The translations under genes and the position numbers were made by a program. Shown here in pieces: positions 35,734 through 38,161 of a DNA stretch of 64,000 nucleotides; within the stretch, counting starts at the first letter, position 1; every line of letters starts with the position of its first letter. Source of the DNA: Caulobacter hibisci (lineage in GTDB: Bacteria; Pseudomonadota; Alphaproteobacteria; Caulobacterales; Caulobacteraceae); NCBI RefSeq assembly GCF_016135805.1, contig NZ_JADWOX010000005.1:186001-250000 (forward strand). Direction: 5' to 3'. The notes under the pieces are model-generated. The model had not been told where the DNA came from and did not search any database. It saw nothing but the letters and a program-made list of their open reading frames with translations.

Positions 35734-36147
35734 ATGACGACCGGTCACCAGGTTTTCGATCCGCCGCCGCCGGTGATCAGCGGCCTGCGCCAGCGCTGCC
35801 CGCGCTGCGGCGAGGGCAAGCTGTTCAAGGGCTTTCTCGGCCTGGCCCCGGCCTGCGACCGCTGCGGCCTCGACTACGGCTTCGCCGAACCGGCCGACGG
35901 CCCGGCCTTCTTCGTGATGAGCGGCGTCGGCATCCTGGTCATCGCCGTCTTCGCCTGGATCGAGGTGGTCTACCGGCCGCCGATCTGGGTGCACTTCGTC
36001 ACCGTCTTCCCGGCCCTGATCGTCGGCTGTCTGGCGACCCTGCGGCCCGTGAAGGCCTGGCTGGTGGCCGCGCAGTTCGTCACCAAGGCCGAGGAAGGCA
36101 AGTTCGAGAGCCTGGGCCGCCACGACCACGATCCCAGAAGGCTCTGA
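35734..36147 (+). CDS. DUF983 family zinc-ribbon membrane protein
   Basis: A 137-aa protein with an N-terminal CxxC...CxxC ribbon (RCPRCGEGKLFKGFLGLAPACDRCGLDYGFAEPADGPAFF) and two membrane helices (VMSGVGILVIAVFAWIEVVY and VTVFPALIVGCLATLRPVKAW). This is the complete DUF983 architecture. The family has no settled function; in some proteobacteria it adjoins cytochrome oxidase assembly genes, but not here. Its divergent MocR-type neighbour and shared palindrome suggest control by a PLP-responsive regulator. The iron-permease-like gene follows after 15 bases and may be co-transcribed. Confidence 0.85.
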   Translation: MTTGHQVFDPPPPVISGLRQRCPRCGEGKLFKGFLGLAPACDRCGLDYGFAEPADGPAFFVMSGVGILVIAVFAWIEVVYRPPIWVHFVTVFPALIVGCLATLRPVKAWLVAAQFVTKAEEGKFESLGRHDHDPRRL

Positions 36148-36162
36148 ACGGAACACCGAGCT

Positions 36163-36669
36163 GTGGCGTTTGACAGCAAACGCTGGAGCCCGCCGTTGGA
36201 CAAGTTCTTCGCCAAGTTCGCCAACGCCACCGCCCAGGTGACGGGCCGCCCCGTCACCTTCCTGGCCTGCCTGGGGCTGGTGATCCTGTGGGCGGTCTCG
36301 GGGCCGATCTTCAAGTTCTCCGAGACCTGGCAGCTGGTGATCAACACCGGCACCACGATCATCACCTTCCTGATGGTGTTCCTGATCCAGAACACCCAGA
36401 ACCGCGACAGCGAGGCCGTCCAGGCCAAGCTCGACGAGCTGATCCTGACCTCGACCGCCGACAACGACTTCGTCGGCATCGAGAAGCTGTCGGAGAAGGA
36501 GCTCGACGCCTACCACGCCCAGTGCAAGGCGGCCGCCGAGCGCGCGCACGACCGGCTGGAGCAGGTCACCGCCCTGCGCGAGAAGAAGAACAAGGCGCCC
36601 GCGAAGAAGCCCGCCGCCAAGACCTCGACCGCGAAGGCCGCGCCGCGCAAGCGAGCCTCAAGAACATGA
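36163..36669 (+). CDS. Low-affinity iron permease family small membrane protein
   Basis: A 168-aa protein of the family annotated as low-affinity iron permease. It has FAKFANATAQVTGRPVTFLACLGLVILWAVSGPIFKFSETWQLVINTGTTIITFLMVFLIQNTQNRDSEAVQAKLDELI, giving two helices and the conserved NTQNRD..A...KLDEL. A Lys/Ala-rich tail ends the protein. Bacterial members are much shorter than the yeast Fet4 protein, and direct evidence for iron transport is thin, so the name should be read cautiously. The start is GTG 36163 without a strong ribosome site, which fits translation behind DUF983. Confidence 0.82.
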   Translation: MAFDSKRWSPPLDKFFAKFANATAQVTGRPVTFLACLGLVILWAVSGPIFKFSETWQLVINTGTTIITFLMVFLIQNTQNRDSEAVQAKLDELILTSTADNDFVGIEKLSEKELDAYHAQCKAAAERAHDRLEQVTALREKKNKAPAKKPAAKTSTAKAAPRKRASRT

Positions 36670-36691
36670 ACGGCAGCTACCGTCTCTGGCC

Positions 36692-37330
36692 TTAAACTGG
36701 CCTGGGTTCGCCATTGAGCGTGTCGGATATTTGAATCAAACGCTGGACTTCGGCGCGCGAGGGTTCGCGGTCCAACAGCCCATGAGCGACGGCGTTACGC
36801 ATGTCGGCCATCTGTCTAAGAAATTGGAATTCTGTTTGCGGCAATCGGCCCGTCGAGATGACGACATCGATCAACGATCGAGGACTGAGGCTCCGAGCCA
36901 TCAAATTCGGCTCGAGCCGACGGCAAATCGCTTCAAGAATCGACCAGGCCATCAAGAGCGCGGCACGAGGTGCGACATCTGTAACGCGACGCACCTCGTC
37001 CAACGCGACCCGCACCTCTTGGTTTGTCGCGATCGTCATCGGCACGCCTTCCGGCGAAGCATAGATGACTTCCAGACGCCATTCGGGATGATCTGCGAAC
37101 AGACTTTGCAGTTGCCTTACCTTAGTGTCGGCGGAGGGACTGCGGCTACGCATGACCTCGATCACCAAGGAGGGTGCACGGCCAACCGCGATAGCGTCGG
37201 GCTGAAAACCTCGTAAGAACGCTGGGAGTTGCTCTCGTTTCGGTTCGCGGATCAGCTGATAGCCCTCGCTGGCCCAACGGGCTTCGAGGCTGTCGAGCAT
37301 CGCTTGCTCATTCAATACTGCCGACGCCAT
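36692..37330 (-). CDS. AHJR-type PD-(D/E)xK-like plus HEPN-like protein, second gene of a RusA-coupled pair
   Basis: The 212-aa protein has two parts. Residues about 8-100 look like an archaeal-resolvase-type restriction-endonuclease fold: an N-terminal Glu-rich helix, FQPDAIAVG with Asp45, and LVIEVMRSRSP with Glu58. The usual lysine two residues after the Glu is Met60, so catalysis may be lost or use another residue. Residues about 115-205 are helical and carry MADMRNAVAHGLLD. That is an RxxxxH motif (Arg178, His183) as in HEPN ribonucleases. The gene begins inside TAATG of the RusA-like gene, indicating translational coupling. Base composition is visibly less GC-rich than the neighbours, suggesting transfer. 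Family names are inferred from motifs only. Confidence 0.6.
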   Translation of the reverse strand: MASAVLNEQAMLDSLEARWASEGYQLIREPKREQLPAFLRGFQPDAIAVGRAPSLVIEVMRSRSPSADTKVRQLQSLFADHPEWRLEVIYASPEGVPMTIATNQEVRVALDEVRRVTDVAPRAALLMAWSILEAICRRLEPNLMARSLSPRSLIDVVISTGRLPQTEFQFLRQMADMRNAVAHGLLDREPSRAEVQRLIQISDTLNGEPRPV

Positions 37331-37779
37331 TACGATAGCTCCTCATGAACATCGTCCGTGATCCGGACGTAGATCACTGGGTCATCGGCTTCTAGGGCTG
37401 TAACCAGGGTAATGGACGGACTTTGAAAGGCGAAGACGCGCCCCGGCTCAAATTTTTGCACCACCACTCGCTCGACGATTTCGTCATCGCTGTAAACGCA
37501 GCGTACCATGGCATCCAAGATCGGCTTCACTCGATTATCGACGTCGCCTTGCATCTCAGCGCCGGGGAAGATGAAGATCGTAACAGCAAGGGGATCGGTC
37601 AAAAGCCAAGATCCTTCAGGGAGCGCGGCCCGCGCTGCTTCCTGAATCGTTTGCTTCCAGTCACGCCTAGATCCGCTTGAGCCCTGGAGGCTGATAGCGG
37701 TGCCATGAACTACGAACTCAAAGGGCAGATTGGGTTCTAGCGACACGGCTGAATCCACGGATCGATCAAGCTTCGCCAT
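37330..37779 (-). CDS. RusA-like Holliday-junction resolvase-fold protein
   Basis: A 149-aa protein with the RusA core: MQGDVDNRVKPILDAMVRCVYSDDEIV. It supplies Asp79, Asp81, Lys85 and the Asp98-Asp99 pair, which match the acidic triad and lysine of E. coli RusA. The N-terminal strand FEFVVHGTAISLQG is longer than usual, and the C-terminus lacks the usual short basic tail. RusA proteins usually sit in lambdoid prophages and cut four-way junctions. No phage gene is present here; instead the gene is coupled by TAATG to a nuclease/HEPN-type partner. Moderately low GC suggests acquisition. The start at ATG 37777-37779 has a weak ribosome site. Confidence 0.72.
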   Translation of the reverse strand: MAKLDRSVDSAVSLEPNLPFEFVVHGTAISLQGSSGSRRDWKQTIQEAARAALPEGSWLLTDPLAVTIFIFPGAEMQGDVDNRVKPILDAMVRCVYSDDEIVERVVVQKFEPGRVFAFQSPSITLVTALEADDPVIYVRITDDVHEELS

Positions 37780-37849
37780 TTAGCGAGCTCATCGGCGTAG
37801 AAACAACCGAAGATTGCCCCCCGCCCCCCATTCCAATCCTGCGCGCGCC

Positions 37850-38161
37850 CTACTTCTTCTCGAGCAGCAGCGTGCCCTGCTTCTTCACCTGGCCGGTGAT
37901 CTTGCCGGCGATCATGCCCAGCAGGCCCGGCAGCACGATCTCGACCAGCACGACGTTGGCCGCCACGTTCAGCTTGCCGGTGATGTTTTGCCCCATGACG
38001 ATGGCCGAGAAGTCGAGCACGTCGTCGCGCCAGGCCTTGGTGACGTTGGCCAGGCCGCCGGGGATCTGGGCGCCCAGCTGCTCGAAGCCGCTCTCGATCC
38101 GCCGCTTGGCCTCGGCCACGCCGAGTTCGTGGGGGATGTTGATGGTGACAGGCTTCGACAT
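37850..38161 (-). CDS. Polyhydroxyalkanoic acid system family protein
   Basis: A 103-aa protein beginning MSKPVTINIPHELGVAEAKRRI and containing GGLANVTKAWRDDVLDFSAIVMGQNITGKLNV. These are the conserved blocks of the PHA granule-associated/PHA-system small protein family. The tail EIVLPGLLGMIAGKITGQVKKQGTLLLEKK looks amphipathic. Members are often near PHA genes or are general small granule or membrane-associated proteins; no PHA synthase is in this window. ATG 38159-38161 follows GGAG. The longer open frame upstream runs antisense to the small membrane gene and was rejected. Confidence 0.82.
   Translation of the reverse strand: MSKPVTINIPHELGVAEAKRRIESGFEQLGAQIPGGLANVTKAWRDDVLDFSAIVMGQNITGKLNVAANVVLVEIVLPGLLGMIAGKITGQVKKQGTLLLEKK

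Follow-up and report, generated by a model that had tools for sequence, protein, structure and literature searches.

The Caulobacter hibisci window analysed here, that is, the whole stretch of 64,000 nucleotides, contains two short genes on the minus strand joined by the sequence TAATG (37328..37332), in which the stop codon of the first gene and the start codon of the second share one base. Gene 1 (37330..37779) encodes a RusA-family Holliday-junction resolvase of 149 aa, and gene 2 (36692..37330) a 212-aa protein in which an AHJR-like restriction-fold domain is fused to a HEPN domain. Both open reading frames and the one-base junction, proposed in a first-pass annotation made from the sequence, were confirmed. 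The locus raises the question of whether a structure-specific DNA nuclease and a predicted RNase form a genuine unit and, if they do, what such a unit might be for.

Domains and active sites of the two proteins

Gene 1 matches the Pfam RusA profile PF05866 with an E-value of 1e-10 (42.7 bits, cut-off 22.8). Its AlphaFold model (pLDDT 91.9) has the RusA fold over residues 17-144, the top PDB match being E. coli RusA 1q8r (Z 12.1, 106 residues, 2.3 Å) and the next unrelated fold scoring Z 5.7; Foldseek also returned the RusA fold (E 1.9e-5). The family assignment is based on Pfam and the fold, since the RusA sequence profile gave no match to PDB sequences at E 0.01. Gene 1 thus resembles E. coli RusA in fold, profile and catalytic residues, with an identity of just 18%. 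The residues D79, D81, K85, D98 and D99 named in the first-pass annotation are all present in the C. hibisci protein, and the catalytic segment running from D79-x-D81-N-x-x-K85 to D99 (37483..37545, minus strand) keeps D79, D81, K85 and D99 jointly in all 77 aligned RusA rows. We take the E. coli counterparts of this set to be D70, D72, K76 and D91. Cutting of Holliday junctions is predicted for gene 1.

The residue counts for gene 2 refer to 78 rows representing 77 genes, the gene of C. vibrioides DSM 9893 having been counted twice (L003 and L108). Alignment A6 left out nine of the 79 pair loci, namely L040, L057, L061, L071, L079, L081, L097 and L099, which are near-copies or lie on short contigs, and L114, which is cut by a contig end; nor does it include four further loci (L015, L017, L023, L024), L027, which is without RusA, or the broken L026.

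The AlphaFold model of gene 2 (pLDDT 93.3) consists of two domains. The N-terminal one (residues 6-106; 37013..37315, minus strand) matches the AHJR-like profile PF18743 with an E-value of 2.2e-22 (79.3 bits, cut-off 26.1). Archaeal Hjc 1gef is found by the model with a middling Z of 6.6, and a profile built from the 78 rows finds the Hjc-like 2eo0 among PDB sequences (E 1.4e-4). This half may be regarded as a fold relative of the AHJR-like restriction endonucleases and as a putative nuclease at most. The aspartate D45 is kept in 77 of the 78 rows and E58 in 69, whereas the lysine of the restriction fold is kept in 24 rows (23/77 without the duplicate C. vibrioides row) and absent from 54, C. 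hibisci having M60 in its place. The full PD-(D/E)xK triad is present in 23/78 rows and is not intact in C. hibisci. That this half has mostly lost its catalytic lysine goes beyond the first-pass annotation, which had noted Met60 in the C. hibisci protein. On a tree built without the columns concerned, at least 10 changes of the lysine state are required, and in the most divergent pair (G117, from another class) D, E and K are all present.

Elsewhere within residues 1-110, K or R reaches 50 of the 78 rows in no column, and a moved, near-invariant lysine in this half was rejected as an explanation, the best K/R column (position 70) reaching just 47/78. The restriction-fold half may cut with a lysine from a variable place, and its retained acids may bind metal. 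For the 10 of 13 sequence pairs with usable dS, dN/dS is 0.02-0.14 for RusA, 0.02-0.24 for the Hjc-like domain and 0.08-0.31 for the HEPN domain, so all three domains are under purifying selection and the Hjc-like domain is not decaying. Since the lysine is mostly lost and the domain is still constrained, the Hjc-like half is read as a nuclease turned sensor or adaptor, and a role in binding or regulation is more likely for it than one as a nuclease. Judging from the alignment, two active sites (RusA and HEPN) appear to be guarded and the third to be dispensable, with its domain still needed. Compared with an Hjc-type resolvase or an AHJR-like restriction endonuclease, gene 2 has a like profile and fold but mostly lacks the catalytic lysine, is fused to HEPN and is partnered by a second, unrelated resolvase.

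The HEPN domain covers residues ~101-208 (36707..37030, minus strand). It matches DUF4145, a HEPN family (PF13643), with an E-value of 3.8e-5 and 24.1 bits, just above the cut-off of 23.1, so that all three profiles, RusA, AHJR-like and DUF4145/HEPN, exceed their Pfam cut-offs. Its top fold match is the HEPN domain of Csm6 (8jbb, Z 11.2, 108 residues, 2.3 Å), and HepT scores Z 10.1-10.6, with 6m6w at 10.6. Because helical bundles can reach such Z values through common arrangement alone, the motif and the profile were also weighed in this assignment. The HEPN motif R-x4-6-H is represented by R178-N-A-V-A-H183 (36782..36799, minus strand), and R178, H183, G184 and E133 are found in 78/78 rows. 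The first-pass annotation had correctly placed D45, E58, M60 and R178-x4-H183, and the nuclease and HEPN folds that it suggested both appear in the model, as the Hjc-like and HEPN domains. RNase activity of the HEPN domain is predicted.

It could be supposed instead that the HEPN domain is a dimerisation or nucleotide-binding part, not an RNase, and that the complex is a structure-specific nuclease acting on DNA only. Many HEPN relatives are inactive, and outside its motif this domain evolves fastest of the three. The retention of both R178 and H183 in every row, whereas the lysine of the restriction fold is not kept, speaks against such a role, which we regard as quite improbable.

Linkage of the two genes across genomes

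RusA alone was used to scan 84,980 species genomes by peptide patterns that pick up close relatives. This yielded 121 confirmed relatives, of which the best 80 were examined. Gene 2 lies directly downstream on the same strand in 79 of these 80. In the remaining locus (L060), RusA is followed by a long reverse-strand transposase-like ORF, presumably an IS110-type transposase, as recognised by eye. The overlap of the two genes is four bases long in 44 and one base long in 31 of the 79 homologous pairs (75/79 in total); the start of gene 2 was set by a script, which took the first ATG in the vicinity of the RusA stop. Each protein searched separately finds the same 6 of 72,556 plasmids. The neighbourhood conservation of the pair is borne out by the genome scan and by the plasmid searches.

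In the C. hibisci genome and 60 relatives, gene 2 was found in 4/61 and RusA in 5/61. Four of the latter are the gene 2 genomes, with E-values below 1e-22 and adjacent genes, and the fifth match is weak and partial. Among 398 genomes drawn evenly from the phylum, the gene 2 profile matches nine, six over the full length and three in the HEPN half only. All six full-length matches have RusA coding directly upstream, broken in one case (G226). When both profiles were applied to 385 genomes of the class, strong matches to both were found in 7 genomes, to RusA only in 0, to gene 2 only in 1 (G671) and to neither in 377, which gives a Fisher p of 3e-14 with thresholds placed after the gap in E-values was seen. 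The remaining RusA matches in these 385 genomes are partial, with E-values of 8e-11 or worse; at E 1e-3, the gene 2 profile matches 9/385.

Three of these genomes deviate. In one of the seven double-positive genomes (G610, L026), both genes are broken. In G226 (L016), RusA is truncated and carries a frameshift beside a gene 2 that is still open, which may be a draft-assembly error. G671 (L027/L038) contains a divergent AHJR-HEPN protein that lacks the D-E-K set and keeps R-x4-H, and no RusA match was found in 19 kb around it. Since gene 2 occurs alone in G671 and with a broken RusA in G226, the genes are not absolutely interdependent. The pair is nevertheless a real conserved unit with translationally overlapping genes; chance neighbourhood was ruled out by the 79/80 linkage together with the co-occurrence in the 385 class genomes.

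Insertion, spread and genomic surroundings

In C. hibisci, the pair is a low-GC insertion of about 1.2 kb (about 36665..37846, without strand) that carries exactly the two genes and is missing from the compared relatives. The empty-site comparison covered the loci of 18 relatives (11 further fetched loci lay outside it), and in 17 of the 18 both flanks of the insertion match at a distance of 12-707 bases, too tight for the pair. Compared with L132, the insertion starts where the left-hand gene ends and stops just before the right-hand gene, and no mobile gene was seen inside it when the junction with L132 was read by eye. The lower GC content noted in the first-pass annotation amounts to 0.56-0.59 within the two genes, the flanks shown having about 0.64-0.77. 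It recurs elsewhere: in 75 of 78 loci the pair has a lower GC than its flanks, with a mean difference of 7.9 points. The site (36146-37850) is also variable in other respects: some relatives, for example L131, are without the left-hand gene too, and in L128-L130 it is occupied by about 650 bases of different sequence.

According to NCBI titles, the 80 loci belong to Alphaproteobacteria of several orders (78), a Myxococcota metagenome-assembled genome (1) and a record without placement (1). Caulobacter vibrioides, a species in standard laboratory use, carries a member (L108), which is also a PF18743 match. The Myxococcota contig (L082) and a Rhodobiaceae metagenome-assembled genome with the pair (L086) belong to one assembly series, and the former may have been misbinned. 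Outside Alphaproteobacteria, one clear full-length pair was found, that of G117 from another class of the phylum, in which 1/48 genomes has a full-length match and 6 more match in parts, with E-values from 1e-6 to 1e-3. The flanks of the copies differ between members of the C. hibisci genus, and the nearest neighbours of the pair belong to many families, few of which are common to several loci. The pair is patchily spread and moves horizontally between unrelated sites.

RusA is known mainly as a resolvase of phages and prophages and is usually phage-borne, which counts in favour of a prophage remnant. Neither protein, however, matched any of 50,697 phage records, and gene 2 is absent from all 37 viral contigs that encode a distant RusA. 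In a tree with 23 viral RusAs, a single branch, which is without support, separates the 77 paired RusAs from the viral ones. No phage gene was recognised by eye among the ORFs neighbouring the C. hibisci pair, as the first-pass annotation had stated, and a search of the 64-kb window for tRNA genes returned none. The negative results with phage records and viral loci, together with the clean 1.2-kb insertion, refute a prophage remnant as a general account and, with the 79/80 linkage, leave it, like chance neighbours, extremely improbable.

Neighbours were scanned as the nearest gene on each side (77 upstream and 75 downstream, with gene calls by a heuristic script). Pfam assigned them mostly to housekeeping families, each found in few members. 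PADLOC at E 1e-10 returned 7 families upstream and 46 downstream (25 listed), and nine large neighbours scanned singly included one SNF2-helicase-like protein and one dCTPase match. Clear defence-like neighbours are a minority and most look housekeeping, which counts against reading the pair as a conflict module. On plasmid pT136b (L162), genes of the AbiEi/AbiEii type and those for a restriction endonuclease, a UvrD helicase and an IS5 transposase lie beside the pair. On plasmid pTi_CFBP2177 (L160), the pair is situated between an imuA-imuB-dnaE2 cluster with ligD and a gene for an ATP-binding protein.

The latter setting fits a recombination or repair module with no role in conflict, in which RusA would resolve junctions and gene 2 would be a helper that binds junctions or clears RNA from R-loops or forks, and it was counted against the conflict reading. 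The folds of both proteins are those of junction resolvases, which agrees with repair as well. Such a module would hardly be expected to be as rare and patchy as the pair is among the 61 genomes and in the class, nor to be mobile and low in GC. Searching the 78 upstream regions with three LexA-type patterns gave 0 exact matches, and one-mismatch sites occurred at the level of shuffled sequences (8, 6 and 8 against 8.8, 4.6 and 9.0). SOS control was ruled out on these counts, and a repair module is on the whole unlikely.

Candidate function and related systems

From the architecture described above, which is directly observed, we infer that the pair is a stand-alone, horizontally moving conflict module, most likely directed against phages or plasmids and acting via growth arrest. 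We hold this reading tentatively, at a probability of roughly 0.45; the defence or toxin-type module proposed in the first-pass annotation is thereby supported in part. The structural kin of the HEPN domain, Csm6 and HepT, are conflict RNases, which counts in its favour. PADLOC-DB 2.0.0 knows neither protein as a system, which counts against it: RusA gave no match in this 2023 catalogue, and gene 2 gave short weak matches with E-values of 0.0025 and 0.019. A search of the proteins against NCBIfam returned nothing.

The main rival is a toxin-antitoxin pair in which gene 2 would be a HEPN RNase toxin and RusA an antitoxin that acts by binding, the pair being kept by addiction. Gene order, size, overlap, the lone insertion among housekeeping genes and the patchy spread are all toxin-antitoxin-like, and HepT of the HEPN-MNT toxin-antitoxin pair is among the nearest folds. 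The full catalytic set of RusA in all 77 rows would, however, be needless for plain binding. A toxin should also not outlive its antitoxin, whereas gene 2 is open beside the broken RusA of G226 (where an assembly error is possible) and is found without RusA in G671. We consider this explanation doubtful. The pair further shares with HEPN-MNT (HepT-MntA, type VII) a two-gene layout, the HEPN fold and R-x4-H, but its partner is a RusA resolvase (in 79/80 loci), not an MNT nucleotidyltransferase. The motif of the HEPN-MNT toxin, which we take to be R-x4-H-x-Y with a target tyrosine, is incomplete here, no Y being found at position 185 in any of the 78 rows.

For the preferred conflict module, the following course of events can be proposed. 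RusA, either by itself or complexed with gene 2, would recognise the branched DNA of replicating or recombining foreign DNA and probably nick it. The Hjc-like domain, whose junction-binding fold would have changed from cutting to sensing, would couple this event to the attached HEPN dimer, and the released HEPN RNase would cleave cellular RNA, by which the cell or the invader would be stopped. The fold match to Hjc is middling, and junction binding by the Hjc-like domain is putative; both points count against this reading. Four-way junctions are bound by RusA and also by Hjc, a resolvase unrelated to it. Branched DNA is suggested as the common ligand because two unrelated resolvase types share an operon with an RNase. 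That the pair represents an immune module of a new kind, in which RusA and a resolvase-fold sensor detect branched phage or plasmid DNA and switch on a fused HEPN RNase, is possible, with the odds against it.

Were this so, it would be the first system described, within the open-access literature searched, that reads DNA-recombination intermediates and answers with the destruction of RNA. HEPN RNases are among the commonest suicide effectors of bacteria. In nearly every locus examined here, a HEPN domain is linked to a structure-specific DNA nuclease as well as to a resolvase domain that has decayed. Should branched DNA indeed be the trigger, bacterial immunity would gain a signal of a new class, and RusA a cellular job.

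Open-access papers contained no report of an AHJR-HEPN protein with RusA, a provisional result, as most subscription journals and all supplements lie outside the search; RusA with HEPN gave no papers, and RusA with HepT unrelated ones only. The view of the first-pass annotation that this is an undescribed two-gene system is thus supported within these papers: conflict modules with HEPN effectors are known, and a resolvase-gated one is not described in the literature searched. A table entry in Anantharaman et al. 2013 (PMC3710099) records that HEPN-M (DUF86) proteins are in some cases found as fusions with a REase resembling the archaeal Holliday junction resolvase, one that had escaped earlier detection. 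The main text of that paper, where 'holliday' occurs once, names no RusA partner at that place, and the fusions in the table may include gene 2. The protein BxaP is described (PMC10799925) as having anti-phage activity and shares DUF4145/HEPN with gene 2, but its other domain is HEAT-like, and it is linked to BREX and not to RusA. Csm6, the best fold match of the HEPN half, differs in that gene 2 is without a CARF domain and has an Hjc-like N-terminal domain instead. The gene 1 family, paired in nearly every locus and not phage-borne, differs in these respects from RusA as otherwise known. The C. hibisci genome contains a second RusA match, weak and partial (G000:C4:26726-26836, L216), which is probably an ordinary RusA of the phage type.
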